In this document: positions 9,400 to 30,001 of the stretch, piece by piece | How positions within the stretch are numbered: position 1 is the first letter of the stretch | How the letters are laid out: the number at the start of each line of letters is the position of its first letter | From: Solidesulfovibrio sp. | GTDB lineage: Bacteria; Desulfobacterota; Desulfovibrionia; Desulfovibrionales; Desulfovibrionaceae | NCBI RefSeq assembly: GCF_038562415.1 | Contig: NZ_JBCFBA010000010.1 | Location: 62,001-126,000 of the forward strand | Length of the DNA stretch: 64,000 bases | Direction: 5' to 3' | Program-made: the position numbers and the translations under genes | The notes under the pieces: model-generated | What the model was told of the DNA's origin: nothing | Databases searched by the model: none | What the model saw: the letters and a program-made list of their open reading frames with translations, nothing else

Positions 9400-9415
9400 T
9401 GGCATGGGTTTTGCC
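9400..9415 (+). promoter_or_regulatory. Sigma-54 promoter of the 9.6-21.4 kb operon
   Basis: TGGCATGGGTTTTGCC matches the -24/-12 consensus (TGGCA, G, four free bases, TTGC), with exactly ten bases between the invariant GG and GC. Transcription would start near 9426, leaving a leader of about 175 bases before the DUF1116 gene. A sigma-54 activator gene lies at the far end of the operon. Confidence 0.7.
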
Positions 9416-9600
9416 CTTTACCAATGAGCAATAGCCGTATCCGACACGAATAGACTGAAACAGTGCACGGTTCTCGAATAGCCAAAGCAACGCTACATGG
9501 ACTGCAATGAACGACTAGATAGTGAACACATCGCCCTGACATTCTGCCTAACACATAGAAGGCACATGATAAAGCAACACATAACCGGAGACTGACAGCC

Positions 9601-11001
9601 ATGACAGACATCAGCCAAAGCATCAGCGTTGTCAATATCGGGCTCGAAAGCTTCTACACCGAGCTTGCTGAACAAAATGTTCCAGCCGTCCAGGTGGATT
9701 GGCGCCCGCCGGCCGGGGGCGACGTCGGTCTTATCGACAAGCTCGCCCGATTGCAGTGCCCTGAAGTCGAGGCCGCCAACGCCCAGACCCTCTCCCGCCT
9801 GATGAATAGCCGCCCCCTGTGGGTCGACGTCCTGCCGGCCATCGACGCCATTCCCGGCATGGAGCACAATAATTTGCTCCACTCCGGCCCCCCCATTGCG
9901 TTTGGCGACATGTGCGATCCCCAGCAGCGCGCCGTAGAGGCCGCCGCCATCTTTGAAGGCTGGGTATCCGACCGCGCGGGCCTTGTGGCCAAGCTCAACA
10001 GCGGCGACATCCGGCTGCGGCCCAACTATGCGTTTGGCAGCGTCGGGGCCATGTGCGGCATCATTTCCCCCTCCATGCAGGTGATCGTCACCAACAACGC
10101 CACCTACGGCAACCGGTCCTGGTCCACCTTCAACGAGGGCAAGGGCAACGTCATCTGGATGGGAACCTACAATGAGGGGACCATTGAGCGCCTGCGCTGG
10201 ATGCGCGACGTGTTGGCCCCGGGACTGCGGGCAGCCCTGCGCACCCGGGACGAAGGCATCGACATCTTTAAGATCATCGCCGAAGGCACCTCCATGGGCG
10301 ACGAGGTCCATGCCCGAAGTGCCGCCTGCACCCTGCTTCTTTTGCGCCAGCTCACCCCCATGCTCCTGGCCGCCGACATAAAGCGTCGCGTGGTGGCCCA
10401 GATCATCGAGTTCCTCGGCCAGAACAACCACTCGTTTTTGAGCCTGACCCTGACTGCCTGCAAGGCCGCTGCCGACGCCGCCCACGGCATCCCCCATTCC
10501 ACCGTGGTCACAGCCATGAGCCGAAACGGCGTCAACTTCGCCCTGCGTGTCGGCGGTATTGCCGACGAATGGTTCATTGCCCCCACCGCCCCCATGGATG
10601 AGGCCATCTACTATTCCGGGTACGGCCCGACCGACGCCGCCGGGGACATCGGCGACAGCGCCATCGTGGAGACGGCCGGCCTTGGCGGCATGATCATTGG
10701 CGCCGCCCCGTCCATCAGCTCCTTTGTCGGCGGCTCCATGCAGCATTCCCGCCAGGCCATGGCCGCCATGCGCTCCATTTGCGCCGGGGCCAATCCGGCC
10801 TTTGCGCCCGGGGCCGTGGATTTCACCCCAGCCCCGGTCGGTATCGACATCCGCAAGGTCGTTCGCCTGGGACTGACGCCGATTATCGACACCGGCGTGC
10901 TGCACAAGGCCTCGGGCGTGGGGCAAATCGGCACCGGCATCGCCCGCGCCCCCATGGCGGCGTTTACCAAGGCCCTGGCTGGCATGCCACTCCCCCGCTG
11001 A
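9601..11001 (+). CDS. DUF1116 protein, AllG/YlbE-like oxamate carbamoyltransferase subunit
   Basis: A 466-residue protein of the DUF1116 (YlbE) family, recognised from NNLLHSGPPI, PNYAFGSVGAMCGIISPSM, NEGKGNVIWMGTYNE, DEVHARSAA and NGVNFALRVGG. In E. coli the homologue (AllG) works with FdrA/AllF, DUF2877/AllH and carbamate kinase AllK. That complex phosphorolyses oxalurate to oxamate and carbamoyl phosphate, and homologues of all four are in this operon. The start follows GGAG eleven bases upstream. It is the first gene behind the sigma-54 promoter at 9400. The family is secure; the exact substrate here is inferred and may differ. Confidence 0.9.
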   Translation: MTDISQSISVVNIGLESFYTELAEQNVPAVQVDWRPPAGGDVGLIDKLARLQCPEVEAANAQTLSRLMNSRPLWVDVLPAIDAIPGMEHNNLLHSGPPIAFGDMCDPQQRAVEAAAIFEGWVSDRAGLVAKLNSGDIRLRPNYAFGSVGAMCGIISPSMQVIVTNNATYGNRSWSTFNEGKGNVIWMGTYNEGTIERLRWMRDVLAPGLRAALRTRDEGIDIFKIIAEGTSMGDEVHARSAACTLLLLRQLTPMLLAADIKRRVVAQIIEFLGQNNHSFLSLTLTACKAAADAAHGIPHSTVVTAMSRNGVNFALRVGGIADEWFIAPTAPMDEAIYYSGYGPTDAAGDIGDSAIVETAGLGGMIIGAAPSISSFVGGSMQHSRQAMAAMRSICAGANPAFAPGAVDFTPAPVGIDIRKVVRLGLTPIIDTGVLHKASGVGQIGTGIARAPMAAFTKALAGMPLPR

Positions 11002-11031
11002 CCCCAACCCCGCTCGCGCCGGAGAAACAAA

Positions 11032-11976
11032 ATGACCAAACCCATCGCCGTGGTAGCTTTTGGCGGCAACGCCATCCTGGACGCCGGAGACGACGGCTCG
11101 TTTCCCACCCAGCTCGAAAAAGCCAAGGCCGCCTGCCGCCAGATGCTGGCCATCCTGCACCAGGGCTACCAGCTCATTTTGGTCCATGGCAACGGCCCGC
11201 AAGTCGGCAATCTGCTGATTCAATTCGAAAAAGCCCGGGACATCATTCCGGTGCCGCCACTCGACGTGGCCGTGGCCTCGTCCCAGGGGCTGCTGGGCCA
11301 CATGCTGGAAATAAGCATGCGCACGGTGCTGGAAGAGGATCGTATGCAGCGCGAGGTGGCGACCGTGCTCACCCAGGTGGTGGTCAGCCCCAACGATCCG
11401 GCCTTTTTGCACCCCACCAAGCCCATCGGCCCTTTCTATACCAAAGAGCAGGCCGAGCACTACCGGGACACCGAAGGCTGGCACATCGTCGAGGACGCCG
11501 GCCGGGGCTGGCGGCGGGTGGTCTGCTCGCCCCTGCCGCGCAAGGTGCTGGAACTGGGCACCATCAAGTACCTGGCTGAAAACGACACCGTGGTCATCGC
11601 CTGCGGCGGCGGCGGCATTCCGGTCAACTACTTAACCGATTGCGTGGTCGGCACCGACGGCGTCATCGACAAGGACGCCACGGCCGCCCTGCTTGCCTAC
11701 AACATCGGGGCCGAACGCTTCATCATCTTAACCGGCGTGGACAAGGTCTGCCTGGACTACGGCAAGCCCAGCCAACGGGCCGTGGACGTCATGACCGCGG
11801 CCGAGGCCAAAGGCTGGCTGGAAGAAGGCCAGTTTCCGCCGGGCAGCATGGGACCGAAGATCCGCAGCGCTATAGAATATGTGGAGAAGGGCGGCACGGA
11901 AGTCATCATCACCTCCCAGGACCACATCGTCGCGGCCATGCAGCGCTCCGGCAACTGTACCAGGATTGTAAAATAG
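11032..11976 (+). CDS. arcC: Carbamate kinase
   Basis: A 314-residue amino-acid-kinase-family enzyme that converts carbamoyl phosphate and ADP to carbamate and ATP; carbamate then decays to ammonia and CO2. Motifs include AFGGNAIL near the N terminus, LVHGNGPQVGN, IACGGGGIPV, DKDATAALLA, ILTGVDKVCLDYGKP and GSMGPKIRSA. It follows the DUF1116 gene by 30 bases with GGAGAAACAAA before ATG. Its place beside the FdrA, DUF1116 and DUF2877 genes argues for the AllK role (energy capture from carbamoyl phosphate) rather than the arginine deiminase pathway, of which no other gene is seen. Confidence 0.96.
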   Translation: MTKPIAVVAFGGNAILDAGDDGSFPTQLEKAKAACRQMLAILHQGYQLILVHGNGPQVGNLLIQFEKARDIIPVPPLDVAVASSQGLLGHMLEISMRTVLEEDRMQREVATVLTQVVVSPNDPAFLHPTKPIGPFYTKEQAEHYRDTEGWHIVEDAGRGWRRVVCSPLPRKVLELGTIKYLAENDTVVIACGGGGIPVNYLTDCVVGTDGVIDKDATAALLAYNIGAERFIILTGVDKVCLDYGKPSQRAVDVMTAAEAKGWLEEGQFPPGSMGPKIRSAIEYVEKGGTEVIITSQDHIVAAMQRSGNCTRIVK

Positions 11977-12005
11977 CGCTCCCAACCACCAATTGAGGGA
12001 CAGTC

Positions 12006-13514
12006 ATGCAACTGCAAGCCACAGTACGCCAGAATCAATATCAGGACTCGGTCCGTTTGATGCAAATTTCCCGGCAGGCCAGCTCCTTGCCCGGCGTCGC
12101 CAAGGTGTTGGCCCTGCTCGGCACGGACAGCAATAAAAAGGTGCTGACCGATCTCGGCCTCATGGATGCCACCGTTGCCGCTGCCACGGCCAACGATCTG
12201 GTCATCTGCGTCGAGGCCGAAACCGACGAGGCCATAGCGCGTGCCCTGGCCGAGGTGGACGCGCGGCTCTGCGCGACGACTTCCGGCCAGGTGACCCGGG
12301 AAAACCCCAAATCCCTGGAAGAAGCCGTAAGCAGGCTGCCGGGAGCCAATGTCGCCATGATCTCCCTGCCCGGCCAGTTCGCCAAACTCGACGTGGCCGC
12401 CGCCCTGGAACAGGGTCTGCACGTCATGTTGTTTTCCGACAATATCTCGCTGGAGGATGAAGCGGAACTCAAACAGCGCGCCGTGGACAAGGGACTGCTG
12501 CTCATGGGCCCGGACTGCGGCACGGCCATTATAAATGGCGTGGCCCTGGCCCTGGCTAACGTGGTGCGCCGGGGCGCGATCGGCCTAGCTGCCGCCTCGG
12601 GCACCGGCATCCAGGAAGTGACCTGCCTCATTGACCGGTTCGGCGGCGGCGTGTCCCATGCCATAGGCGTCGGTGGACGCGACCTTAAAAAAGAAATCGG
12701 CGGGGCCATGATGTGCCAGGCCATCCGCACCCTGGCCAACGACCCGGCCACCACCACCTTGATTGTGCTGTCCAAGCCGGGCGACCCGGAGGTCATGGAC
12801 AAGGTGATGGCCGAGGCTCGAGCCAGCGGCTTGCAGGTGGTCGCCTGCTTGCTTGGCAGCGACGAGACGACCGAGGCCGGCGGCATGACCTGCGTCGCCA
12901 CCTTGGAAGAAGCCGCTTTCGTAGCCTTGGGCCGCCGCGTGCCCGAGACCGTTCTTCCCGAGGGCCTGCAGCAGCGAACGGAGGCCTTGATGCCCGAACG
13001 GCAGCATCTGCGTGGTCTCTACAGCGGCGGGACGCTGTGCTACGAAACGTTGTTTCTCCTCAAGGACAGCCTGGACATCCAGTCCAACGTGGCTATCAAG
13101 CCCCAACTCAAACTGCACTATCCGGTCAAGGGCACGGCCCATTGCTGCGTAGATCTTGGTGAGGACGAATTCACCCAGGGCCGGCCGCATCCCATCATCG
13201 ACCTGGGCCTTCGCCTGGAGCGCCTGGCCGAAGATATGGCCGATCCAACGGTCAAAGTCATCCTGCTCGATCTGGTCCTCGGCTACGGGGCCAATCGCAA
13301 TCCGGCCGCCGAACTGGCCGCAGCGCTGACGGCCGCCAGCCAGGACATCCCCGACGGCGGCCCCCTGGTCTTTATCCATGTCTGCGGCACGGAGGCCGAC
13401 CCGCAAAACCTGCGGGTCCAGGAAGCGCTGCTGCAAGAGGCCGGGGCGTTTCTCTTCCCCACCAACGCCCAGGCGGCCCGGGCCGCCCTGGCAGTGATCC
13501 GAGGCGGCCTCTGA
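12006..13514 (+). CDS. fdrA: FdrA family protein (AllF-like carbamoyltransferase subunit)
   Basis: A 502-residue protein resembling the succinyl-CoA ligase alpha/beta fold and typical of FdrA. It has an N-terminal ~110-residue domain (SLPGVAKVLALLGTDSNKKVL), a CoA-ligase-like core (MISLPGQFAKLDVAAALEQG, LLLMGPDCGTAIINGV, GAIGLAAASGTGIQEV) and a C-terminal ligase-like domain (LRGLYSGGTLCYE, VKVILLDLVLGYG). The related E. coli protein is part of the oxamate carbamoyltransferase with AllG and AllH. It lies 30 bases after the carbamate kinase in the same operon. Full length; no lost motif noticed. Confidence 0.93.
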   Translation: MQLQATVRQNQYQDSVRLMQISRQASSLPGVAKVLALLGTDSNKKVLTDLGLMDATVAAATANDLVICVEAETDEAIARALAEVDARLCATTSGQVTRENPKSLEEAVSRLPGANVAMISLPGQFAKLDVAAALEQGLHVMLFSDNISLEDEAELKQRAVDKGLLLMGPDCGTAIINGVALALANVVRRGAIGLAAASGTGIQEVTCLIDRFGGGVSHAIGVGGRDLKKEIGGAMMCQAIRTLANDPATTTLIVLSKPGDPEVMDKVMAEARASGLQVVACLLGSDETTEAGGMTCVATLEEAAFVALGRRVPETVLPEGLQQRTEALMPERQHLRGLYSGGTLCYETLFLLKDSLDIQSNVAIKPQLKLHYPVKGTAHCCVDLGEDEFTQGRPHPIIDLGLRLERLAEDMADPTVKVILLDLVLGYGANRNPAAELAAALTAASQDIPDGGPLVFIHVCGTEADPQNLRVQEALLQEAGAFLFPTNAQAARAALAVIRGGL

Positions 13515-13572
13515 TCCGCCACGCAGCATCGGCCCGGCGGGGGAGTCTCCGCCGGGCCTGGGAGCACCGAGA

Positions 13573-15024
13573 ATGACCTACCAGGAAGCAGCAGAGCACG
13601 CCTTTGGCCAGGCCGTCTCCTTTGATCCGCAAATCCTTCGCAGCTACGATCATGATCTGGGTGAGATGCCGCGTCCGCTCATGGCCCTGATCCAGCACAG
13701 ACCCCATACCGTGGTGGTGGCCCGAAGCGCCGCAGACGTGGCCACGGCCTTGTCTTTGGCAAAACGCTACGATGTCCCGGTCACCCCGCGCGGCCAGGCC
13801 TCGGCCGGCTACGGCGGGGCCATCCCCAGCCGGGGCGGCATGGTGCTTGATCTCAGTAATTGTAACCGCATCCTGGCTGTTGATGCGGACAAGAACACCG
13901 TGGATGTGGAACCCGGCGTCGTATGGGAAGACCTCTCCCGCGCCCTGGCCCCGCACGGCCTGGACAACCGGGTCTGCCCAACCAGCGCCCCGTCGTCCAC
14001 GGTCGGCGGCTGGTTCGCCATGGGCGGGGTCGGCATCGGCAGCCTGCGCTACGGCTCCATCCGCGACAGTGTCCTGGAAATCGACGTGGCCGGTCTCGAC
14101 GGGACCATCCGCACCTTCGCCGGGGCCGACATGGAGCCTTTCCATCAGACCTGCGGCGGCCTGGGTGTCATCACCCGGCTGCGTCTGGCCTGCCGGCCGG
14201 CCGAGGCCATCCTTCCCCTGGCTGTCCGGCTGCCGGATGCGGCAGCGGCGGCCCGTTTCCTGGAGACGCTTGCGACCACCCCGGCCGCCTATTCGGCCAG
14301 CCTCGTCAATGCCGGCTATTGCGCCCTGCGGGCGCAGGCCGAAGGGCATAGGCCGGCCATAACCTCGGGTTTTCTGGTTTCGATCGCCCTGCTTGCGCCT
14401 CAGGCCGACACGGCAGCAATCGCCCGCCTGGCCTCGGACTGCGGCGGCGAGGTCCTGGACGATGCCGTAGCGGCCCAGGAATGGGAAGGCCGGTACTACC
14501 CCATGCGCATCAAAAAAATCGGCCCCTCGGCCCTGGTGGGGGAATTTTTCATCCCCTTCGAAGGCTTTGCCGCGACCTCCGCCGACCTGACGGCAGCACT
14601 CCCCGACGACGCTTTCGGGCTGGAGGCCTTTGCCGTTCGCGGCGGGAAACTGGCTGTCCTGGTCTATATCCTCGACGACGCCAAGGCCCTGCTCTACCCG
14701 CTGCGCATGGCCAAGGCCATGATTCCCCTGCGGCTGGCCGCCCGGCACGGCGGCGCGCCCTATGCCACCGGCATGTGGTTTTCCGCCCTGGCCAAGGGCA
14801 TTTACGGCCCGGACAAATACGAGCGCATTGCGCGCTTAAAGACCGCCCGGGACAGCCGCGACCTGCTCAACCCCGGGTCCATAGGCGGCCCCTGGCTGCC
14901 GTTTCTGCCGATTATCAGCCTGTCGCGGTGCATCCTTTGGGGGACGGCCTGCCTGGCCCCCCTGGCCGCCCGGTTGTCCTACACCCGTCGCCGCGCCACA
15001 AAGCACCCCGGAGCAACAGCATGA
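13573..15024 (+). CDS. FAD-linked oxidase, GlcD-like
   Basis: A 483-residue flavoprotein with an FAD_binding_4 (PCMH) domain in the first ~220 residues (VTPRGQASAGYGGAIPSRGG, STVGGWFAMGGVGIGSLRYG) and a C-terminal FAD-oxidase domain. The closest general type is GlcD, the flavin subunit of glycolate or lactate dehydrogenases. The last ~35 residues contain a hydrophobic stretch (LPFLPIISLSRCILWGTACLAPLAARL), unusual for GlcD, which may anchor it to the membrane. It overlaps the next Fe-S gene by ATGA, so the pair form one enzyme. Given the OXTCase-like neighbours, I infer that it oxidises a 2-hydroxy acid such as ureidoglycolate to oxalurate; this is untested. Confidence 0.88.
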   Translation: MTYQEAAEHAFGQAVSFDPQILRSYDHDLGEMPRPLMALIQHRPHTVVVARSAADVATALSLAKRYDVPVTPRGQASAGYGGAIPSRGGMVLDLSNCNRILAVDADKNTVDVEPGVVWEDLSRALAPHGLDNRVCPTSAPSSTVGGWFAMGGVGIGSLRYGSIRDSVLEIDVAGLDGTIRTFAGADMEPFHQTCGGLGVITRLRLACRPAEAILPLAVRLPDAAAAARFLETLATTPAAYSASLVNAGYCALRAQAEGHRPAITSGFLVSIALLAPQADTAAIARLASDCGGEVLDDAVAAQEWEGRYYPMRIKKIGPSALVGEFFIPFEGFAATSADLTAALPDDAFGLEAFAVRGGKLAVLVYILDDAKALLYPLRMAKAMIPLRLAARHGGAPYATGMWFSALAKGIYGPDKYERIARLKTARDSRDLLNPGSIGGPWLPFLPIISLSRCILWGTACLAPLAARLSYTRRRATKHPGATA

Positions 15025-16205
15025 GCACCCAAGAACAATCCCCCACCGCCCGCGACGCCGCCCTGGCCAAAATGCTGGCCGAAGCAGTCGACACCTGCGC
15101 CCGTTGCGGCTTTTGCAAGGTTTCCTGTCCGACCTATCCCTTCGGAGGCGGCTTTGAGACCTTTTCCCCGCGCGCCAAGGTCGCCTTTCTCAAGGACTAC
15201 TTCGAGGGCCGCGACGTGCTGACTCCGGAGTGGGTGGATCGCCTCTACCGCTGCACCACCTGCGAGCGCTGCCAGACCGTCTGCCAGACAGCCATCCCCC
15301 TGGTTGCCCTGTGGGAGTCGGTGCGTGCCGACATCGTGACCAAGGGGCTTGGCCCCATGCCGGCCCACAAGAAATTGCGCGCCCTGGCCGAAAAACACGG
15401 CAACCCTTACGGCGAGTCGGCAAGCCGGCAGTCCCAGTGGCTTTCGCCCGAGCACCATCCGATGGAGGCGGCCGACATCCTTATCTTTGGCGGCTGCACC
15501 GCCTCCTACCGCATGCCGTCCATGCTCCAGACCGGCGTGACCATCCTAACGCGCCTGGGCGTCCCTTACGCCTATGCCGGCGGGGAGGAGCACTGCTGCG
15601 CCAGTCCGCTGCTGCGCACCGGCCAGCTCGACGTGGCCGGGGAGCTTATCGGAAAAAACCTGGACCTCTTTGCCCGAACCGGCGCGCGCACCCTGGTCAC
15701 CCCCTGCGGCGGCTGCTCCAAGACGCTCAAGCACGACTACCCGGTCTGGGCCGAAAAGCTCGGCAAGCCCTTTGACGTCACGGTGCGCCATTTCTCGGAG
15801 GTCTACGTGGACTTGCTGCGCCAGGGCCGCATCAAGCCGAGTGTGGCCGTCAATAAAACCGTCACCTTCCACGACCCCTGCCATGTGGGCCGCTCGCAAG
15901 GGCTTTTTGACGAACCCCGGGAGATCCTGGCCGCCATTCCGGGGATAAAGCTTCTCGAAATGCCGCGCTGCCGCGAGAGCTCGCGCTGTTGCGGAGCCGG
16001 AGGCGGGGTCAAGGCCAACTACCCGCAGATGGCCGCCGCCATTGCCCGGGAACGACTGGACGAGGCCGTGGCCACCGGCGCCGACACGCTGGTCACCATG
16101 TGCCCGTTTTGCCAGGGGAGCTTTAGCCAAGCCATAAAAGAGTCCGAAGCGTCCATTGGCTTATCGGGCCTGGAGGAACTGCTCCTGGCCTCCCTGAGGC
16201 AGTAA
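15021..16205 (+). CDS. GlcF/HdrD-like iron-sulfur oxidoreductase subunit
   Basis: A 394-residue protein with two N-terminal [4Fe-4S] motifs (CARCGFCKVSCP and CTTCERCQTVCQ) and two CCG domains (HCCASP with CGGCSK; CHVGRSQG, SRCCGAGGG and CPFCQG). This is the architecture of GlcF, LutA and the HdrD C-terminal half. It should pass electrons from the flavin of the preceding gene to quinone or another acceptor. The start at MSTQEQSPT is set by the ATGA overlap with the upstream stop. The CCG cysteines are intact, so a hybrid noncubane-type cluster is possible. It continues directly (3 bases) into the DUF2877 gene. Confidence 0.92.
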   Translation: MSTQEQSPTARDAALAKMLAEAVDTCARCGFCKVSCPTYPFGGGFETFSPRAKVAFLKDYFEGRDVLTPEWVDRLYRCTTCERCQTVCQTAIPLVALWESVRADIVTKGLGPMPAHKKLRALAEKHGNPYGESASRQSQWLSPEHHPMEAADILIFGGCTASYRMPSMLQTGVTILTRLGVPYAYAGGEEHCCASPLLRTGQLDVAGELIGKNLDLFARTGARTLVTPCGGCSKTLKHDYPVWAEKLGKPFDVTVRHFSEVYVDLLRQGRIKPSVAVNKTVTFHDPCHVGRSQGLFDEPREILAAIPGIKLLEMPRCRESSRCCGAGGGVKANYPQMAAAIARERLDEAVATGADTLVTMCPFCQGSFSQAIKESEASIGLSGLEELLLASLRQ

Positions 16206-16208: not shown

Positions 16209-17132
16209 ATGGACAGGGGTGTGGCGGGATCGAGGGCCGTTCCGGCTGCGGGCACGGTCTGGAACGGCCGGGTGCAGGCGGTCTTTGGGCGAAGCGTGCA
16301 TGTGGCGCTTAACGCACCCGGCCCCGGTTGCCTGACGCTTGGCGGGGTCAGCCTGCCCGCCCACCCCTATTCCATTTTGTGGCCGGACTTCCCGCAGGAT
16401 TGGACCGTGGGGCAGCCGATTACGGTCACGGCCCAGGGCGTCTTCGGTGCGGCAGGAGAGCTTGTCGGCCTCACTGGCCTGCCCCGGTACACGCCAAGCC
16501 TGGCTTGGCGCCCCATGGCCGAAAACGCCCGCATCACCCAGGCCTTGGCGGCCAGCCGGGACAAGGCGGCAGCCATCCCCTCAAGGGGGGGCTTCCACGA
16601 AGTCTTCCTCCAGTGTCATTGTCCGGGGCCTGCCCCCTCGGACATGGCTGGCCGTCTGTCCAGGTCTTTCGCCAGCCTGGGCAGGCAATTATGCACGCAA
16701 CTGTCCCGGTGTCTCAGCCGGCGGCAGTGGGAAGGCGTTGCCCGGATCGCAGGCCTTCTGGCCGGCCTGGGCCTTGGTCTGACTCCGGCCGGGGATGATT
16801 TCCTGGCCGGAGTGCTGACCGCGCTGCGCTACCACGGCCATAGTCGTGGCCATCCCCTCCTCGCCCAAACCGAACTTTGCGCCCTGGCCAGGCAACTGGC
16901 CGGGCAGACCACGGACTTTTCCGGTTTTCTCCTACGGGCTGCCGCCGACGGGTTGGTGGCGGCGCCGGTTGACGACTGGCTGGCCGCCGTCCACGCCGGC
17001 AACCCCGCGCAGGCGGCCAACGCCGTTTCGGCTCTGGCCAAGCTTGGCCATTCCAGCGGCCTGGACACGTTTTCGGGCTTGCTCCTCACCCTGCAAATAC
17101 TTCTGGGAGAACGGCCTTGGACACACGCGTGA
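16209..17132 (+). CDS. DUF2877 protein, AllH/YlbF-like
   Basis: A 307-residue DUF2877 protein. The hallmark is GLGLGLTPAGDDFLAGVLTAL near residues 190-210, with a later SSGLDTFSGLLLTLQ. In E. coli the homologue AllH is the third subunit needed for oxamate carbamoyltransferase. Finding all three subunits and the carbamate kinase in one operon, though interrupted here by the FAD and Fe-S pair, is strong support for that enzyme. The ATG follows GAGG by nine bases. It overlaps the next gene's TTG start by 16 bases. Confidence 0.88.
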   Translation: MDRGVAGSRAVPAAGTVWNGRVQAVFGRSVHVALNAPGPGCLTLGGVSLPAHPYSILWPDFPQDWTVGQPITVTAQGVFGAAGELVGLTGLPRYTPSLAWRPMAENARITQALAASRDKAAAIPSRGGFHEVFLQCHCPGPAPSDMAGRLSRSFASLGRQLCTQLSRCLSRRQWEGVARIAGLLAGLGLGLTPAGDDFLAGVLTALRYHGHSRGHPLLAQTELCALARQLAGQTTDFSGFLLRAAADGLVAAPVDDWLAAVHAGNPAQAANAVSALAKLGHSSGLDTFSGLLLTLQILLGERPWTHA

Positions 17133-18085
17133 ACCTGCCCAAACTGATCGGCACGCTGCGGGACTCGGAAGTCTTTCGCAATAAAACCCCTATTGGGCCC
17201 ATGACCGAGACCTTTGCCGCCCTGGCCGACTCTTTTGGCATCCGAAACGGCGACGACGCCGCGGCCATCCCCGACGGCGACGGCTATCTGCTGCTGGCGG
17301 CCGAGGGCATAACGGCCTCCATCGTACGCCACAACCCCTACCTGGCCGGCAAATGCGCCGTTTTGGCCAATGTCAACGACATCTACGCCATGGGCGGCCA
17401 TCCCCTGGCCATGGTGGATGTCATCGGCACGCCAGACGACGAGTCGGCCCGAGAAATCTGCCGGGGGATGCGCGACAATGCCGCCCGATATCAGGTTCCG
17501 GTGGTCGGCGGCCATGTGCTGCGCACCGAGCGCGACGCCTCGGTGGCCCTGGCCATTTTGGGCCGGGCCAAAAAGTGCATCACCAGTTTCGACGCGCTCC
17601 CGGGGGAACGCCTCGTGCTGGTCACCCGGGGCAACGGCAACTGGCTGGGCGACATGGGCTTTTGGAACTGCACCCTGCCAGAAGACGACGCGACCCTTGT
17701 CTCCCATCTCGAACTGCTGCCGCTTAGCGCCGAACGCGAGCTCGTTCGCGCCGGCAAGGACGTCAGCATGGCCGGCATTGCCGGCACAGCCCTCATGCTG
17801 GCCGAATCGTCCCGGGTCGGGGTCAGCCTCGACGTCGATGCCATTGTCCCGCCCACGGGCGTTGCGCTTGCCCCATGGCTCTTGGCATTTATGTCTTACG
17901 GCTTCCTCCTGGCCGTTACTCCGGGCCGGCTGGCCGAGGTGCTCGACCTGTTTGCGAGCCAGGGCCTACGTGCTGCAACCGTGGGCGAATTTCACGAAGA
18001 ACGACGTGCCTGGCTGCGCCAGGGCGGACGCCGGGCCGTGCTGTGGGATTTTTCGGAGAAGCCCTTTGTCGGAGCGCCGGCATGA
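17117..18085 (+). CDS. AIR synthase-related protein, Sll0787-like (Nit1C set)
   Basis: A 322-residue member of the AIR synthase/ThiL/SelD ATP-binding superfamily. The N-terminal half has NGDDAAAIPDGD, AEGITASIVRHNP and ANVNDIYAMGGHPLAMVDVIG; the C-terminal half is the AIRS-C fold. It most resembles the Sll0787 family, found in the nitrogen-starvation/Nit1C clusters beside a nitrilase, a radical SAM enzyme and a GNAT; its reaction is unknown. TTG at 17117 is preferred because GGGAGA is spaced correctly; GTG at 17129 (GTGA overlap) is possible. Its usual partners are at 26.5-29.6 kb, so the set is split across two transcripts here. Confidence 0.85.
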   Translation: MDTRVNLPKLIGTLRDSEVFRNKTPIGPMTETFAALADSFGIRNGDDAAAIPDGDGYLLLAAEGITASIVRHNPYLAGKCAVLANVNDIYAMGGHPLAMVDVIGTPDDESAREICRGMRDNAARYQVPVVGGHVLRTERDASVALAILGRAKKCITSFDALPGERLVLVTRGNGNWLGDMGFWNCTLPEDDATLVSHLELLPLSAERELVRAGKDVSMAGIAGTALMLAESSRVGVSLDVDAIVPPTGVALAPWLLAFMSYGFLLAVTPGRLAEVLDLFASQGLRAATVGEFHEERRAWLRQGGRRAVLWDFSEKPFVGAPA

Positions 18086-20603: not shown

Positions 20604-21379
20604 CCATGGCCGCGACCCTGACCGTTCGCGATCTCGGCAAGACCTATCCGGCGGCGGGCGACAGGCCGGCGGTCACCGTGCTTGACGGCGTCAGCCTCGA
20701 CGTCGCGGCCGGTTCCATCGTCTCGGTGGTGGGACTCAACGGCTCGGGCAAGACCACGCTGCTGCGCATCATCGCCGGCCTGGAGCCGCCGTCCCAGGGC
20801 AGCATTCTTATCGACGGCCGCCCACCCGTCCCCGGCGGCAGCGGTGGCATCGGGCTGGTTGGCCAGGATGTGGCGCTTTTGCCCTGGCGCACGGTGCGCG
20901 ACAACATCGCCCTGGGCCTTGAACTCCAACGCCTGCCGACGGCCCGACGCTTTGAGCTGGCCAGGCAATACGAAGACGCCTTCGGCCTGGCCGACTGGGC
21001 TGATCGCTATCCCAAGGAACTCTCCGGCGGGATGCGCCAGAAAGCCGCCATAGCCAGGACGCTCGTCGCCAGTCCCGGCGTGGTCCTCATGGACGAGCCC
21101 TTCAGTGCCCTGGACTGCCAGACCCGAAACCGGATGCAGGCTTTCCTGCTGGACGTCTGGGCCACGCGGCGCGACACCATCCTCTTTGTCACCCACAACA
21201 TCGAGGAGGCGGTGCTGGTCAGCGACCACATCATCGTCCTGACGCCAAAGCCCAGCCGGGTCGAGGAGATACTGGCCGTCGACCTGCCCCGCCCGAGGCT
21301 ACGGACCGATGCGGCGGTCAACGCGCTACGGTCCAACATCTTTGAAACCCTGGGAAAACTGCTCCGCCAGGAGCGTTGA
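20600..21379 (+). CDS. ABC transporter ATP-binding protein (SsuB type)
   Basis: A 259-residue ATPase. Walker A is GLNGSGKTT, the Q-loop is LVGQDVALLPWR, the ABC signature is LSGGMRQKAAIARTL, Walker B is VVLMDEPFSALD, and the switch His is in FVTHNIEEAV. It belongs with the SsuB/TauB/NrtD group. The start ATG at 20600 overlaps the permease stop; an ATG two codons later is equally usable. It is the last gene of the operon that begins at 9601, and 137 bases separate it from the sigma-54 regulator. Confidence 0.96.
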   Translation: MTMAATLTVRDLGKTYPAAGDRPAVTVLDGVSLDVAAGSIVSVVGLNGSGKTTLLRIIAGLEPPSQGSILIDGRPPVPGGSGGIGLVGQDVALLPWRTVRDNIALGLELQRLPTARRFELARQYEDAFGLADWADRYPKELSGGMRQKAAIARTLVASPGVVLMDEPFSALDCQTRNRMQAFLLDVWATRRDTILFVTHNIEEAVLVSDHIIVLTPKPSRVEEILAVDLPRPRLRTDAAVNALRSNIFETLGKLLRQER

Positions 21380-21516: not shown

Positions 21517-23139
21517 ATGGCCATATTGGGATTCGTCAATGTCAGGAAGCTGCTCCTGGAATTGGCCCAGCACCACAGCGTGGAGGTGGTCCTCAAGATT
21601 GCCGTGGACACCCTGGCGGCCGTTTCCAGCGTGGCCATGGTGCGGGTCTGGCTCATCGAACCCGGCGACATCTGCGCCAACTGCAAGGACAACCACCAGT
21701 GCGTGGACAAGAGCCGCTGCCTGCACCTCAAGGCCAGCGCCGGAAAATCCATCATCGGCCCGACCACCTGGGACAACATTGCCGGCTCGTCCTTCAGCCG
21801 CTTCCCCATCGGCATCCGCAAGGTCGGCGAAATCGCGCTGTCGGGAAAGCCCATTGAACTCCTCGAAATCAAGCCGGGCGACAAATGGCTGGCTGACGCG
21901 CAATGGATCCGGCAAGAAAAGATTGTCAGCTTCGCCGGCCAGCCCCTGATCTGCCGCGACGAGGTACTGGGTGTCCTGTCCGTCTTCACCCGCCAGCAGC
22001 TCGAACAGGGGGCGCTGGAAATGCTGCGCATGGTGGCCGACCATCTCGCCTACGCCATTGCCAATGCCCGGGCCTTCGAACTGGTCGACAGCCTCAAGCG
22101 GCAGATCGAACTGGAAAACGCCTATCTGCGGGAAGAGATCAACGAAGCCCAGTCGTTTAAGGGCATCATCGGTCAAAGCGAGGGCATCGAGCAGATTCGC
22201 AAGGTCATCCGCATGGTCGGCCCCACCGACGCCAACGTGCTCATTTTCGGCGAGTCCGGCACGGGCAAGGAAATGATCGCCCGGGAGATTCACAACCACA
22301 GCGAGCGCTGCGACAAGCCCATGATCAAGATCAACTGTTCGGCCATCCCCCGGGAACTGTTCGAGAGCGAATTCTTCGGCCATGCCCGGGGCGCGTTCAC
22401 CGGAGCGGTCAAAAACCGCATCGGCTATTTCCAGGCGGCCGACGAGGGAACGCTTTTTCTGGACGAGGTGGGCGAAATTCCGATCTATCTGCAAAGTAAG
22501 CTCTTGCGCGTGCTCCAGGAAGGGGAATACCAGCGGGTGGGCGAGGAGACCGTGCGCAAGGTCAACGTACGTATCATCTCGGCCACCAACCGGAACCTGC
22601 ACACCGAAATCCAGGCCGGCCATTTCCGCGAAGACCTCTACTACCGCTTGCAGGTCTTCCCGATCGTGGTGCCGAGCCTCAAGGAACGCAAGATCGACAT
22701 TCCGCTTCTGGCCGATCATTTCATCAAACTGAGCTGCAAGAAGATGAACCGGCCTCTCGTGCGGCTCACCGAACCGCAGATGGCGCGTCTGGTCGCCTAC
22801 GACTGGCCCGGCAATATCCGGGAACTGCAAAATATCGTGGAACGCATGGTCATCACCGCCCAGCCCGACCAGATGCTGCTCGAGCTGGGCCAGGGGCTGG
22901 GCGGCCCAAGGGAGTGCGCCCCGGCCCCGACGAGCCCGGCGCTGCCGGAGCGCATCCTGAAGGAAAAGGAAATGCGCGCGCTGGAAACGGCGAACATGCA
23001 GGCCGCGCTGCGCCGGACGAACTGGCGGATCTACGGCCCTCGCGGCGCGGCCAAGCTGCTTGGCATCAATCCCACCACGCTGATCTCGCGACTCAAAAAA
23101 CTCGGTGTCTACCTGCCTCGCTCCCAGCCCGAGGAGTAG
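21517..23139 (+). CDS. Sigma-54-dependent transcriptional activator (GAF-AAA+-Fis)
   Basis: A 540-residue enhancer-binding protein. An N-terminal GAF-like domain (~1-195) contains four cysteines, C53-x2-C56-x5-C62-x5-C68. The AAA+ domain has Walker A GESGTGKE, the sigma-54 contact loop GAFTGA, Walker B TLFLDEVGEI and the R-finger region FREDLYYRL. The C-terminal Fis-type HTH is RGAAKLLGINPTTLISRLKKLG. RBS AAAAGGAT precedes ATG. It sits between two sets of genes that carry -24/-12 promoters, so it is the obvious candidate regulator of the locus; Nit1C clusters in pseudomonads also carry such a regulator. The Cys cluster could bind metal or Fe-S and act as the sensor. Confidence 0.95.
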   Translation: MAILGFVNVRKLLLELAQHHSVEVVLKIAVDTLAAVSSVAMVRVWLIEPGDICANCKDNHQCVDKSRCLHLKASAGKSIIGPTTWDNIAGSSFSRFPIGIRKVGEIALSGKPIELLEIKPGDKWLADAQWIRQEKIVSFAGQPLICRDEVLGVLSVFTRQQLEQGALEMLRMVADHLAYAIANARAFELVDSLKRQIELENAYLREEINEAQSFKGIIGQSEGIEQIRKVIRMVGPTDANVLIFGESGTGKEMIAREIHNHSERCDKPMIKINCSAIPRELFESEFFGHARGAFTGAVKNRIGYFQAADEGTLFLDEVGEIPIYLQSKLLRVLQEGEYQRVGEETVRKVNVRIISATNRNLHTEIQAGHFREDLYYRLQVFPIVVPSLKERKIDIPLLADHFIKLSCKKMNRPLVRLTEPQMARLVAYDWPGNIRELQNIVERMVITAQPDQMLLELGQGLGGPRECAPAPTSPALPERILKEKEMRALETANMQAALRRTNWRIYGPRGAAKLLGINPTTLISRLKKLGVYLPRSQPEE

Positions 23140-23900: not shown

Positions 23901-23901
23901 C

Positions 23902-24920: not shown

Positions 24921-24949
24921 TGCCGCCTCCATGCGTTTGCACGTTCCGA

Positions 24950-26053: not shown

Positions 26054-26170
26054 GTCTTTCTCCTGCCGGCCCTGCGCCGCAGGACCAGTTGGCCGGTTCG
26101 GCGCTGCGCTCCCGACAAACGAAACAACCGCGTCGCCGGTCCAGCCGCCCCTTAGGAGCAAGGTGACGTA

Positions 26171-26186: not shown

Positions 26187-26337
26187 ACAACGGCCGGTTA
26201 CGCCGTGCCACCCAGCAACCGGCCTTGGAATCGAAGGATACTCGTGCGCAGGGGCGTCAGCAGGAAGGGGGGACGGCTCCGGCCGGCCCCAGGGTCGGGC
26301 GGCCACGACGACGCTTCGCTGTTTTCAAGGACATCTC

Positions 26338-26446: not shown

Positions 26447-26462
26447 CGGCACAGCCTTTGCT
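26447..26462 (+). promoter_or_regulatory. Sigma-54 promoter of the Sll0783-OsmC operon
   Basis: CGGCACAGCCTTTGCT has the -24 GGCAC and -12 TTTGCT with ten bases between GG and GC. A start near 26473 would leave a short leader before the ATG at 26510. Confidence 0.72.
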
Positions 26463-26509: not shown

Positions 26510-26995
26510 ATGACCATGGTTTCCATCCCCGCCCCGACCACCGGTGACGAAATCGTCAACCACGGCCCCAAAATCTATGAGGATATCAAGGCCAACCCGG
26601 GAGAAAAAGCGCTCATCTGCATGCACACGGTGCCTTTCGAGGGTTCCGTCGGCCTCATCAACATGCTCACCGCCACCCGGCTGGTGCGCAAGGGCTACGA
26701 CCTGACCTTCCTGCTCTACGGCCCGGGCGTGCTCATGGCCTCGGCCGCGCGCGGCTTCCCCAAGGTCGGCGACGAAGGCTTCGCCGGCAATATGGCCTAC
26801 AACAAACAGCTCACCACCATCATGAACGAAGGCGGCAAGGTCGTGGCCTGCCGTTTCGCCATGGCCGCCCTATACGGCCTGCGCGAGACCGACCTCCTGC
26901 CCGGCGTCCAGGGCATCCATCCCCTGGACATCCTGGACTGCATCCTCACCCACCAGCGCGCGGGCGCACTGATCCTGTCCACCTGGACCGTCTAA
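26510..26995 (+). CDS. MSMEG_0572/Sll0783-family nitrogen starvation response protein
   Basis: A 161-residue soluble protein. It matches my recollection of the Sll0783/MSMEG_0572 family (NitB position of Nit1C clusters), with a DsrE-like alpha/beta fold: GEKALICMHTVPFEGSVGLINMLTA, YDLTFLLYGPGVLMASAARGFP, EGGKVVACRFAMAALYG and the end GALILSTWTV. C37 (ICMHT) and C113 (VACRF) are candidates for function. A very good AAAGGAG lies before ATG. It leads the operon behind the sigma-54 promoter at 26447. The biochemical role is unknown; in cyanobacteria the family is named from nitrogen-starvation induction. Confidence 0.85.
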   Translation: MTMVSIPAPTTGDEIVNHGPKIYEDIKANPGEKALICMHTVPFEGSVGLINMLTATRLVRKGYDLTFLLYGPGVLMASAARGFPKVGDEGFAGNMAYNKQLTTIMNEGGKVVACRFAMAALYGLRETDLLPGVQGIHPLDILDCILTHQRAGALILSTWTV

Positions 26996-27043
26996 CCGCC
27001 CCCGGCTGCCTAAGGCCCAAACGCTAACCGCAAGGAGCGCCTC

Positions 27044-27913
27044 ATGGAACGCATGTTGCCTGGAGAGAAAGTCCGACGCAAAGTCTTCGATGTGCACAAC
27101 CACATCGGCTTCATGGAAGGTTTCAAGTATTACGGCCTGCCCGAGCCGGTCAACCCCACAGTCTACTGCGACAACGACCGTGCGGCCAAGATTGAGATCA
27201 TGGACCAACTGGGCGTGGACCGGGCCGTTGTCATGTCCAACTATGGCATCCCCGATCCCTCCCAGCCGTTTGGCCTCAATGCCGTCGTCCTGGACGCCTG
27301 CGCCCATCCGGACAAGCGGATTCTCGGCGGCGTCTGGTTCTCGCCGTCGCTCAAGATGCGGGAAGCCAACGATGCGGCCATGAAGCTGGCCGGGGAACCG
27401 GGCATCAAGGTGCTCAAGGCGACCTGCCTGCTCGGTGGCACCTGGAACCCCGAGGAGTGGGACGAAGACACCAAGAAGATGTGGGAAGGCATCATCGACG
27501 TGTGCGAACGCCATGACCACGTCTTCCACCTGCACACCAGCCCCGGTGGTGGTTCCGACGTCAGCAACTGCATCAAGTTCGTCAAGGCCTACGGCAAGCG
27601 CGTCAAGGTGCATGTCGTCCACTGCGGTGGCGGCGTGTCCGGCCATATCAAGTTCATTCCGGAATTCATCAAATTCGTGAAGGAAGGCTACAAGGTCTAC
27701 ACCGACACCTCCTGGGCCGTCGGCTTCTGCAATCGCTATCTTTTCGATGAGATCGAGAAGAACGGCGTTGGCGACGACCGCGTCATGTTCAGCTCCGACG
27801 AGCCCTGGAGCGACTTCTGGAGCGAATACTATAAGTTCGAGGGGCTTGGCATCTCCGAGGAGCTCAAAAACAAGCTCTTCTGGGAAAACGCCGAAAAGCT
27901 CTACGGCGTTTAG
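27044..27913 (+). CDS. Amidohydrolase family (TIM-barrel) protein
   Basis: A 289-residue metal-dependent hydrolase of the amidohydrolase-2 type. Candidate metal ligands are DVHNH near residue 16, H in FHLHTSPGG, H in HVVHCGGGVSGH and D in FSSDEPWSDF. AAGGAGCGCC precedes ATG. It directly follows the Sll0783-like gene, the place where a nitrilase sits in typical Nit1C clusters, and no nitrilase is found in the window. I infer that it replaces the nitrilase in opening a C-N bond, perhaps of a cyclic amide or ureide. Decarboxylase activity is also known in this family, so the reaction is open. Confidence 0.88.
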   Translation: MERMLPGEKVRRKVFDVHNHIGFMEGFKYYGLPEPVNPTVYCDNDRAAKIEIMDQLGVDRAVVMSNYGIPDPSQPFGLNAVVLDACAHPDKRILGGVWFSPSLKMREANDAAMKLAGEPGIKVLKATCLLGGTWNPEEWDEDTKKMWEGIIDVCERHDHVFHLHTSPGGGSDVSNCIKFVKAYGKRVKVHVVHCGGGVSGHIKFIPEFIKFVKEGYKVYTDTSWAVGFCNRYLFDEIEKNGVGDDRVMFSSDEPWSDFWSEYYKFEGLGISEELKNKLFWENAEKLYGV

Positions 27914-28013
27914 CAGTGATGCCGCGAGGCGTGCGCACGCGTGCCTCGCCAACGGTGCGGGCCAAGCCATCGCCCCTGGCCCGCGCCACAACCGACACGA
28001 TGGACGGCACGCC

Positions 28014-29594
28014 ATGACCATGACCCTAGCGGACTACGTCGCCCTGCAAAGTTTCGGGGCTCGAATCATCGACAACGAGGCCGTCCGGCGGGGCGGGGCC
28101 GGTCCGGCGGATGCCGGGTCCTACGTCATCGACGGCCACCCCGTGATGATCCCGGCGCTGAGCCCCTCGGCGCGCACTTCGGAGTACGCCTTTGCTCAGG
28201 ACGGCGACCGGCTGCGCCTGGAACGCGGCGGACGCCCGCTGTGCCAGGCCACGGCCGTGCCGCGGCCCCGCTTTTACGATGGAGTGACGGCAGACGGCGT
28301 CCCCTACGACAAGATCGCCCGGCTCCACGGCCAGGACTGCCTGGCTTCAACCGTCGTCCAGGAGTGTGTGCGCTTTAACAGCCGCCGCACGCGCTGCCGC
28401 TTCTGCGCCATCGGCGCGTCACTTGACCGCGCGGCCACCATCCACACCAAAACCCCGGAGCAATTGGCCGAAGTGGCCTTGGCGGCCCGGGATCGCGACG
28501 GCGTGCGCCACGTGACCCTGACCGCCGGCACCACGGCCTGTCCCGACGACGGGGCGCTCTATCTCGGCCGCTGCGCCGCCGCCATCGTAGCCGCCACCGG
28601 GCTGCCCGTTGAAATCCAGTTCGAGCCGCTACGCGACCAGGGCCTGTACGCTCGGCTGCGGGATATGGGCGTCACCGACGTTGGCATCCATGTGGAAAGT
28701 TTCGATCCGGCCGTGCGCCGCCGCATGACCCCGGGGAAGGCCGAAGTGGACCTGGAAACCTATTTCGAGGCCTTTGCCGCTGCCGTGGCCGTTTTCGGCC
28801 GCAATAAGGTCAGCACCTACGTGATCCTGGGTCTGGGTGAGGACGTGGCGGCCACCCTGGACGGCTGCCGGCGGGCTGCCACCCTCGGCGTCTATCCCGT
28901 GGTGGTGCCGCTGCGTCCCTTGCTCGATTCCTGCCTGGCCGAGGCCAAGCCGGTCGATCCGGACTATCTCGGCGACATGTACCGGGCCGTGGGAAGGATG
29001 CTGACGGACCAGGGACTTTCCGCCGAGCGCAGCACGGCCGGCTGCGTGCGCTGCCGAGCCTGCTCCCTGCTCCAATTCACCGAGAGCACGCCTGGCCGAC
29101 AACCGGCAGCCACACCTGTCCCGGCGGCAGTGGCCGACGCCGAAGCCGTGACCGTGCGGGTGGCCGAGACGGCAGCGGAAATCGAGGAGTACCTGCGCCT
29201 GCGCCATGACGTCTTCGTGTCGGAACAAGGCATCTTTCCGGTCAGCGACCGCGACGCCCACGACGACGACGCCATCCCCATCATCGCCCTGGTGGCCGGG
29301 CAACTTGCCGGCGTGGTGCGTTGCTACCATCATCGGGGCGGGGTGTGGTACGGAGGCCGGCTGGCCGTGCGGCCCGAATTTCGCAGCGGCGTCAATATTG
29401 GGGCGCTGCTCGTGCGCAAGGCCGTGGCGCTCATGCGGGCAACACCTGACGTGCGGCGTTTCCTGGCCACGGTCCAATTTCAGAATGTCCGCTTCTTCCA
29501 GCGCATCGGCTGGGTGCGCCTGGGAAAGCCGTTTCTGATGCAGGGTAAAAAGCATCAGATCATGGAAAGAAAACTTGACGGGGACCCCGCATGA
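28014..29594 (+). CDS. Radical SAM protein (MSMEG_0568 type) fused to GNAT acetyltransferase (MSMEG_0567/Sll0786 type)
   Basis: A 526-residue two-domain protein. The N-terminal ~370 residues are a radical SAM enzyme with the family's odd cluster motif C118-x9-C128-x2-C131 (ECVRFNSRRTRCRFCAIG), followed by VTLTAGTTACPDDG, VEIQFEPL, VGIHVESFDPAVRRRMTPG and a C-terminal CxxC (CVRCRAC). After a Pro/Ala linker (about 375-390) comes a GNAT domain (EEYLRLRHDVFVSEQGIF, VVRCYHHRGG, YGGRLAVRPEFR, NVRFFQRIGW). In Nit1C clusters these two proteins are normally separate neighbours. ATG at 28014 is used; another ATG lies two codons on. The stop overlaps the OsmC start. Reaction unknown; the fusion argues that the two act in sequence. 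Confidence 0.88.
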   Translation: MTMTLADYVALQSFGARIIDNEAVRRGGAGPADAGSYVIDGHPVMIPALSPSARTSEYAFAQDGDRLRLERGGRPLCQATAVPRPRFYDGVTADGVPYDKIARLHGQDCLASTVVQECVRFNSRRTRCRFCAIGASLDRAATIHTKTPEQLAEVALAARDRDGVRHVTLTAGTTACPDDGALYLGRCAAAIVAATGLPVEIQFEPLRDQGLYARLRDMGVTDVGIHVESFDPAVRRRMTPGKAEVDLETYFEAFAAAVAVFGRNKVSTYVILGLGEDVAATLDGCRRAATLGVYPVVVPLRPLLDSCLAEAKPVDPDYLGDMYRAVGRMLTDQGLSAERSTAGCVRCRACSLLQFTESTPGRQPAATPVPAAVADAEAVTVRVAETAAEIEEYLRLRHDVFVSEQGIFPVSDRDAHDDDAIPIIALVAGQLAGVVRCYHHRGGVWYGGRLAVRPEFRSGVNIGALLVRKAVALMRATPDVRRFLATVQFQNVRFFQRIGWVRLGKPFLMQGKKHQIMERKLDGDPA

Positions 29595-30001
29595 TCGTCA
29601 CCGCCGTCCCATTAAACGAGACCGCCCTCACCTTGACCTCGGAGCTGCACACCGCCATCGCGGACCAGTCCCCGGGCTTGGGCGGCGAGGGCCTTGGCCC
29701 CATGCCCAGCGAACTGCTCCTGTGGTCCGTGGCGGCCTGTTTTGGCCAAGCCATCCGCTACGTGGCCGCCCGCAGACGCCAGGAGGTCGAGGCCTTGTCT
29801 CTTGAAGTGGACGGCGTCAAAGACGCCAAGGCCTTTTGCTTCGGTGAGATCGTTATTCGCGTGTCCGCCGCGTTGCCGCTGCAACGCTTGGAAAGCATTG
29901 TGCTTCTGGCTGGCAAATACTGTTTTGTGACCAACAGCCTATCCACGCCGGTTCGCGTTGAAGTTGCATCCGCACTGCCGGCTGACCTGCCCGGGCGTTG
30001 A
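29591..30001 (+). CDS. OsmC family protein
   Basis: A 136-residue OsmC-fold protein. LGPMPSELLLWSVAACFGQAIRYVA carries the family helix with its conserved Cys. A second Cys lies late in the chain (GKYCFVTNS), the usual peroxidase pair arrangement. OsmC proteins reduce organic hydroperoxides or persulfides, though some are simple thiol-handling proteins. It starts with ATGA overlap to the radical SAM-GNAT gene and ends the operon just before a strong hairpin. A role in protecting the radical SAM enzyme or handling a reactive intermediate is possible but unproven. Confidence 0.88.
   Translation: MIVTAVPLNETALTLTSELHTAIADQSPGLGGEGLGPMPSELLLWSVAACFGQAIRYVAARRRQEVEALSLEVDGVKDAKAFCFGEIVIRVSAALPLQRLESIVLLAGKYCFVTNSLSTPVRVEVASALPADLPGR

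Follow-up and report, generated by a model that had tools for sequence, protein, structure and literature searches.

Which reaction could call for both a carbamoyl-transfer gene set and the core of a nitrilase gene cluster? The question is raised by a locus of Solidesulfovibrio sp., studied here within a stretch of 64,000 nucleotides (the window, whose numbering is used throughout), in which genes were judged by the curated cut-offs of Pfam, NCBIfam and TIGR models. Operon 1 (9601-21379) carries, in order, AllG, carbamate kinase, FdrA, an FAD protein, a CCG iron-sulfur protein, AllH, an AIR-synthase-like ATPase (AIRS), an unnamed protein and an importer. Operon 2 (26510-30001) carries Sll0783, Amidohydro_2, a radical SAM-GNAT fusion and OsmC, and the gene of a sigma54 activator lies between the two operons. 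All genes named in an original prediction, made from the sequence alone, were found by profile searches where it had placed them, on the + strand; AllG, carbamate kinase, FdrA and AllH were recognized by their models, and the Sll0783, Sll0787 and MSMEG_0568 proteins score above the curated cut-offs of their families. We tentatively explain the locus as a single sigma54-controlled module, arranged as two operons here, whereas in some relatives the gene sets adjoin. It may well be a nitrilase-free counterpart of the Nit1C cluster, in which the core of a cyanide-linked cluster (Sll0783, radical SAM, GNAT and AIRS) is joined to a carbamoyl-to-ATP set that takes the place of nitrilase.

Conservation and control of the two gene sets

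Among 149 Desulfovibrionaceae genomes, the radical SAM protein exceeded its cut-off in 7 and AllG in 11, and both did so in 6 (hypergeometric 2.3e-7, which for related genomes is not a strict probability). All 6 carry both genes on one contig, in differing arrangements: the two sets adjoin in G141 and G026, and elsewhere AllG and radical SAM lie ~17-18 kb apart. In the seventh radical SAM genome (G109), the 6.7-kb contig ends within the region. Two peptide patterns taken from an alignment of AIRS proteins were also run, in a search that was not exhaustive, against one genome for each of 84,980 species, and the 51 loci that they found were mapped using the window proteins. Defining a hybrid as a contig that carries AllG and one or more core genes, we counted 16 separate cases: the window, G080, G026, G095, G112, G141, L061, L068, L069, L134, L072, L079, L082, L105, L110 and L112. 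Record titles and tree labels place them in Thermodesulfobacteriota, Myxococcota, Acidobacteriota, Actinomycetota and Pseudomonadota (L069 stands outside this assignment), and the four phyla besides that of the window hold rearranged versions of the module; its conservation thus takes in sulfate reducers and a scatter of bacteria elsewhere. The proposal that the two sets of genes make up a single unit, and would be found together in a neighborhood search of the family, was thereby borne out, and chance adjacency was rejected on the strength of the co-occurrence within the family and the recurrence in wider relatives. In the last six hybrids listed (L072, L079, L082, L105, L110 and L112), neither the binding protein and permease of the importer nor the FAD/CCG redox pair had a match within the sequence examined. 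The HPCC motif of the binding protein was seen in the window, L049, L050, L052, L054, L061, L062, L066 and L069, and L065 reads HLCC.

The absence of nitrilase, also part of the original prediction, held for the whole genome: the best match to the Nit1 model TIGR04048 scored 26.7 bits versus a cut-off of 502.6, and the idea that a Nit1 nitrilase is encoded elsewhere in the genome was rejected. A Nit1 query that itself exceeds this cut-off matched 20 of 62 loci, namely 19 nitrilase-type loci and L112, a Methylocystis iwaonis plasmid. No match was obtained in the other 15 of the 16 hybrids, within the sequence examined, and L112 is the sole locus that combines the nitrilase and hybrid types. Amidohydrolase was found in 15 of 16 hybrids when the remainder of each contig or genome was included, the exception again being the plasmid, where a search with the amidohydrolase gave no match; it was absent, within the sequence examined, from all 19 nitrilase-type loci and from all 20 of a set of AllG-free core loci described below. 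Amidohydrolase is the best marker of the hybrid type.

Trees were built after leaving out the contigs L063, L064, L065 and L067, which duplicate G095, G112, G141 and G026. All hybrid AllG proteins fell on one side of a single branch (support 96/92, or 100/98 without the long row L043), and the hybrid FdrA proteins likewise grouped together (support 86), with E. coli forming a long row in that tree. The same branches separate the window AllG (96/92) and FdrA (86) from the characterized E. coli subunits, so both belong to subfamilies of their own.

Both operons are preceded by a sigma54 -24/-12 promoter that is conserved in relatives. The pattern YGGCAYNNNNNTTGC, picked after both promoter sites had been seen, occurs 4 times in the window versus 1.1 expected, and 2 of 100 shuffles reached 4; two of the four matches, at 9400 and 26447, precede the two operons in coding orientation. 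A sigma54 score of 10 of 11 was reached by 16 of 22 upstream regions examined, several of them from close relatives, compared with 107 of 4000 random 420-base windows and 0.9% of first-order Markov shuffles of those 16 regions. The six regions below this score precede AllG (L056, L048, L072 and L130), Sll0783 (L072) and the activator gene (L135). For L056 and L048, AllG comes straight after the other gene set. A candidate activator site, TGTTTTCANNGACA, tentatively lies upstream of each promoter. Its motif was derived from the two window sites, which makes their 12/12 match one by construction; it reaches 10/12 in L050, L051, L057 and L061 and has no match in the other relatives examined, while 62 of 1500 random windows reach 10 and 7 reach 11.

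A proposed carbamoyl-to-ATP route and its alternatives

The reading that we favor, with some hesitation, combines importer uptake, core chemistry and AllFGH-type carbamoyl phosphorolysis, with carbamate kinase giving ATP, NH3 and CO2. The SsuABC-type importer with its HPCC binding protein would bring in some small organic molecule, perhaps a sulfonate. From this molecule the core (Sll0783 of DsrE-like fold, variant radical SAM, GNAT and AIRS-type ATPase), assisted by the FAD/CCG redox pair, the SAM-methyltransferase-like protein and the metal amidohydrolase, would make a carbamoyl-bearing intermediate. A dedicated AllFGH-type transcarbamoylase would then pass the carbamoyl group to phosphate, and carbamate kinase would convert carbamoyl phosphate to ATP, NH3 and CO2. 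Gene content, conservation, the common promoter type and the separate subfamilies are established. Judging by the protein families, the carbamoyl transfer and kinase steps are probable; the substrate, the order of steps and their direction are guesses, and the substrate may possibly be cyanide or a thiol-bound carbamoyl. In E. coli, AllFGH interconverts oxalurate and carbamoyl phosphate, needs three genes, AllH among them, and has beside it a kinase described as catabolic (PMC11326118). ATP, NH3 and CO2 are the end products to be expected from this chemistry and the adjacent carbamate kinase. The end step of the original prediction, from a carbamoyl group through carbamoyl phosphate to ATP, thus follows naturally from AllFGH and the kinase, and it is the ureide route leading up to it that found no support.

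Several observations weigh against this reading. AllH was detected in 10 of 16 hybrids and not in G141, G026, L068, L079, L082 or L112, and L112 has no carbamate kinase within its 45 kb. Across 395 genomes of the phylum, radical SAM was present in 39 (34 over the cut-off) and amidohydrolase in 1, both at E 1e-50, and AllG in 6 at E 1e-20. The Solidesulfovibrio genome itself is the only one with more than one of these markers, so in most of the relatives sampled here the core works without AllFGHK. None of 20 further radical SAM loci taken from these genomes (L165-L184, some on short contigs) had a match to AllG, amidohydrolase, Sll0783 or nitrilase, so the link between AllG and the core is not universal. 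An earlier radical SAM tree had a single branch between nitrilase and hybrid types, but the view that the radical SAM proteins of hybrids make a single clade was dropped once these 20 loci and L134 entered the tree, where hybrids occupy three places. Those placements fit recruitment of the module as well as a single ancestral pathway. Lastly, the coenzyme M genes found in other hybrids (see below) could point to a cofactor pathway rather than to catabolism.

The AllG-free loci represent a third arrangement of the core. The binding protein is present in 14 of 20, AIRS in 14 and the CCG protein in 15, with all three in 10; those 10 loci bring together radical SAM (in many cases with GNAT fused to it), AIRS, an HdrD/TfrB-like CCG protein and an importer of the HPCC kind. 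All 14 binding proteins carry the HPCC motif, and one annotated example, L178, also has cytochromes and an FMN reductase. The binding-protein tree has long branches. In L112, radical SAM groups with the nitrilase loci and Sll0783 with the hybrids (support 80-84, long branch). Given the AllG-free loci and the radical SAM proteins that form no clade, the likeliest history is that of a portable core joined to three kinds of ends.

In L082, L105, L110 and L112, the hybrid set lies beside ComA (phosphosulfolactate synthase, PF02679), XcbC/XcbD-like lyases, a pyridoxal phosphate (PLP) enzyme and a DUF7714-type gene; in L072, ComA starts at the contig end and adjoins DUF7714. Coenzyme M synthesis genes thus accompany five of the six importer-free hybrids, and the genome of the sixth, L079, a 2.0-Mb metagenome-assembled genome (MAG), has no ComA. 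The lyases tested (L110, L112 and Nocardioides) match Xcb models best, yet under the curated cut-offs. ComA was not found in the Solidesulfovibrio genome and occurs in one of eight importer-bearing hybrid genomes tested (G000, G026, G080, G095, G112, G141, G155 and G156), namely G141, on another contig. In L096 (Chloroflexi), coenzyme M genes stand with AIRS and GNAT, with no AllG match in the 9-kb contig and no amidohydrolase in the genome. L072, L110, L112 and Nocardioides encode a protein that resembles CoA-disulfide reductase and has the single-Cys motif SPCG; L082 has a homologue. Nocardioides soli DSM 105498 holds a coenzyme M version of the set within ~23 kb, and the plasmid L112 unites a Nit1C operon with nitrilase, AllG, an FdrA-like protein, coenzyme M genes and cydAB.

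A bolder idea, to which we give a slim chance, is that the module acts on a coenzyme-M-like sulfonate-thiol carrier holding a carbamoyl or cyano unit as a thiocarbamate. The carrier would be made beside the module in Myxococcota, Acidobacteriota, Actinomycetota and Methylocystis and taken up through the HPCC importer in Desulfovibrionaceae, and AllFG would perform a thioester-like phosphorolysis (R-S-CO-NH2 + Pi -> carbamoyl phosphate + thiol). That the importer is a proven coenzyme M importer was a claim we dropped, since AllG-free core operons carry the same importer. An AIR-synthase-like protein is listed for all sequenced methanogens (PMC4153887); taken as the family of the window AIRS, whose second-best model is TIGR03267 (methan_mark_2), it would be a coenzyme-M-linked enzyme if the carrier idea were true. 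The archaeal records L085, L086, L089 and L090 show methan_mark_2-like AIRS after SsuABC-type importer genes, with L085 and L086 ending early.

Other accounts of the locus can be set against the carbamoyl-to-ATP reading. As originally proposed, it would serve ureide catabolism: the FAD/CCG pair would oxidize ureidoglycolate to oxalurate, AllFGH would yield oxamate and carbamoyl phosphate, and the core would handle a further ring-opening product. The AllFGHK set is indeed present, with an oxidation pair in the same operon, and oxalurate is a substrate of AllFGH in E. coli (PMC11326118). Allantoinase is over the cut-off in two of 14 hybrid genomes (G149 and G151), and the Solidesulfovibrio genome is negative (best TIGR03178 score 34.6 bits versus 357.85), for which reason canonical allantoin feeding was rejected as unsupported. 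Moreover, the hybrid AllG and FdrA stand apart from those of E. coli, the redox pair is not a recognizable glycolate oxidase and is unmatched in the six importer-free hybrids, five of them with coenzyme M genes, and a ureide pathway would leave radical SAM, GNAT, AIRS and Sll0783 without a role; we regard it as distinctly unlikely. An importer and a GAF-sigma54 activator usually mark induced uptake and catabolism, which argues against a role in biosynthesis or redox defense, with carbamate kinase and AllFGH running toward carbamoylation and the core making a thiol-type cofactor or protectant. The kinase next to E. coli AllFGH is likewise termed catabolic (PMC11326118). Such a role would agree with the increased NADPH/NADP ratio and peroxide resistance conferred by the Nit1C-type cluster gpr of M. 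smegmatis (MSMEG_0565-0572; PMC6039565), with the OsmC and DsrE-like Sll0783 proteins of the module, and with the single-Cys protein of the coenzyme M hybrids. On balance, we consider it unlikely.

The established chemistry of succinyl-CoA-synthetase alpha domains, which FdrA bears, is thioester phosphorolysis. This would suit a cyanide route, in which a thiol traps cyanide as R-S-CN, the amidohydrolase hydrates it to R-S-CO-NH2, and AllFGH phosphorolyses the product. The core is common to Nit1C, a cluster with a link to cyanide assimilation (PMC11049912), and the gene content of the Methylocystis plasmid points the same way. That plasmid has no amidohydrolase match, the Solidesulfovibrio genome lacks the coenzyme M synthase, and the role of the core would go unexplained, which together make the cyanide route quite doubtful. 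Two unrelated operons that are neighbors by accident would account for the LrgAB, ferredoxin and FabH-like genes that separate them in the window. The adjoining sets of G141 and G026, the conserved promoter type and the recurrence of the combination in five phyla render such an accident extremely improbable.

Gene identification and surroundings

The features of the locus are collected in the table. Those beyond the original list are the methyltransferase-like protein at 18082-18855, the sigma54 activator and the two sigma54 promoters.

Table. Features of the Solidesulfovibrio sp. locus, in window coordinates.
Feature	Position	Strand	Evidence
Candidate activator site TGTTTTCANNGACA, ~130 bp upstream of operon-1 sigma54 promoter	9271..9284	-	tentative
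sigma54 -24/-12 promoter, operon 1	9400..9414	+	pattern match; also precedes AllG in relatives
AllG (DUF1116), transcarbamoylase subunit, hybrid subfamily	9601..11001	+	PF06545 249.4 bits (cut-off 27)
Carbamate kinase (AllK role)	11032..11976	+	NF009007 319.8 > 266; TIGR00746 357.0, just < 358.25
AllF/FdrA, succinyl-CoA-synthetase-alpha-like subunit	12006..13514	+	NF004760 462.3 > 433; PF00549, PF02629
FAD-binding oxidoreductase (GlcD-like)	13573..15024	+	PF01565 121 bits; TIGR00387 far < cut-off
CCG iron-sulfur protein (GlcF/TfrB/HdrB-like)	15021..16205	+	PF02754 in two stretches, PF13183
AllH (DUF2877)	16209..17132	+	PF11392 85.2 (cut-off 25)
Sll0787-type AIR-synthase-like ATPase (AIRS)	17117..18085	+	TIGR04049 336.6 > 321.3
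Unnamed protein, class I SAM-methyltransferase-like fold	18082..18855	+	predicted structure, Foldseek
Importer binding protein with HPCC motif	18868..19851	+	PF13379; best PDB sequence match SsuA 2x26
Importer permease (SsuC/TauC-like)	19848..20603	+	profile match
Importer ATPase (SsuB/TauB-like)	20600..21379	+	profile match
GAF - AAA - Fis-HTH sigma54 activator	21517..23139	+	PF00158, PF01590, PF02954
Candidate activator site TGTTTTCANNGACA, ~127 bp upstream of operon-2 sigma54 promoter	26320..26333	+	tentative
sigma54 -24/-12 promoter, operon 2	26447..26461	+	pattern match; conserved in relatives
Sll0783/MSMEG_0572 protein, DsrE-like fold, invariant Cys114	26510..26995	+	TIGR04044 215.1 > 109.85
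Metal-type amidohydrolase (Amidohydro_2)	27044..27913	+	PF04909 78.3 > 26.4
MSMEG_0568 radical SAM fused to MSMEG_0567 GNAT	28014..29594	+	TIGR04043 396.7 > 303.7; TIGR04045 133.3 > 68.45
OsmC-like protein	29591..30001	+	PF02566 66 > 27.5

The pair that had been called GlcD/GlcF-like is present as FAD and CCG genes, but the likeness is loose, with every curated cut-off missed: GlcD (TIGR00387) scores 84.7 against 567.9 bits and GlcF 93.6 against 333, and the top model of the CCG protein, TfrB, reaches 236 versus 385. The importer binding protein also falls under the SsuA_fam cut-off (TIGR01728, 126.2 versus 163.5 bits) and shares 22% identity with E. coli SsuA across 198 residues. For the unnamed protein, the open reading frame at 17875-18855 that contains it has no Pfam or NCBIfam match. 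Its predicted model (pLDDT 91) found NNMT, INMT and PNMT as best Foldseek matches (E 7e-8 to 1e-6, TM ~0.5), and a relationship to DUF7714 was rejected after comparison. A PDB sequence search gave nothing useful for this protein or for Sll0783. The latter is predicted to adopt a DsrE/YchN/TusBCD-like fold (pLDDT 81) with a cysteine that is invariant in alignments, and MSMEG_0572 has already been termed a DsrE-family protein (PMC6039565). Among the invariant columns of the amidohydrolase alignment (n=11) are H18, H20, H164, H193 and D252, which are putative metal ligands. By eye, Cys50 and Cys111 of OsmC align with cysteines of the L110 and L112 OsmC proteins.

Between the operons, the minus strand at 23205-26056 encodes LrgB, LrgA, a ferredoxin, a short protein and a FabH-like protein, a block kept in G080 and L061 and partly in G112. 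Downstream of OsmC, dsrA and dsrB (30327-32822) begin after ~330 bases; these dsr neighbors recur in G080, and dsrA also in G109. A minus-strand open reading frame at 33058-36261 (1067 residues) shows, by eye, internal repeats and a signal-peptide-like start. In other genomes, a gene of the aspartate/ornithine carbamoyltransferase family adjoins AllH in the Acidobacteria hybrid (L110, 606-1580), and a fusion of TusA with cobalamin-independent methionine synthase (Meth_synt_2) lies ~2.2 kb from the hybrid operon of L134 (7728-9263), a MAG labelled Anaeromyxobacter. The Pseudonocardia loci L106-L109 have a distant AIRS, with cupin-HTH-like and ketopantoate-reductase-like genes nearby in L106 and L108, where carbamate kinase is ~8 kb away; L106 also has a luciferase-like monooxygenase. 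A Halomicronema record (L071, 7324-8946) encodes an HPCC-type binding protein of the same broad family beside GNAT and AIRS.

Relation to known systems

The Synechocystis cluster sll0783-0787 is a Nit1C cluster. The window shares with Nit1C the Sll0783, radical SAM, GNAT and AIRS families, all over curated cut-offs, and differs in having no Nit6803-type nitrilase (TIGR04048), in showing no MSMEG_0565-type glycosyltransferase among 20 window proteins scanned, and in adding AllFGHK, amidohydrolase, an importer and the FAD/CCG pair. Pseudomonas nitABCDEFGH also belongs to Nit1C, and NitA is a sigma54 regulator (PMC11049912), as is the activator of the window. All four families of E. coli allFGHK (PMC11326118) occur in one operon of the window, but in the order AllG-carbamate kinase-FdrA-...-AllH, with AllG and FdrA of separate subfamilies and without allantoinase in the genome. 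In nitrifiers, allFGHK beside biuret and triuret genes is likewise joined to another nitrogen pathway; the Nit1C core is not mentioned in the accessible part of that paper, where 'nit1c' and 'radical' have 0 occurrences (PMC12625717). Coenzyme M biosynthesis (xcb) shares ComA, XcbC/XcbD-like lyases and a PLP enzyme with L082, L105, L110 and L112, and differs from the present case in that the Solidesulfovibrio genome has no ComA and the XcbC/XcbD-like proteins tested score under their cut-offs. The original remark that no described pathway has this combination agrees with the open-access literature, in whose titles and abstract openings AllFGHK joined to a Nit1C core was not found, most subscription journals lying outside the search.

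The Nit1C/gpr core ranges from cyanobacteria to mycobacteria, and for its radical SAM, GNAT, AIRS and Sll0783 proteins no reaction is given in the cited papers, as far as accessible. Its three types of partners (nitrilase; AllFGHK with amidohydrolase; importer with an Hdr-like protein) separate a constant chemistry from exchangeable ends, and the module supplies testable substrates together with a culture-collection strain, Nocardioides soli DSM 105498, that has the coenzyme M version. If the link to coenzyme M were true, that cofactor would gain, beyond methane and alkene metabolism, one more role in the recovery of nitrogen and energy. The conserved module itself points to an undescribed route of nitrogen and energy recovery.

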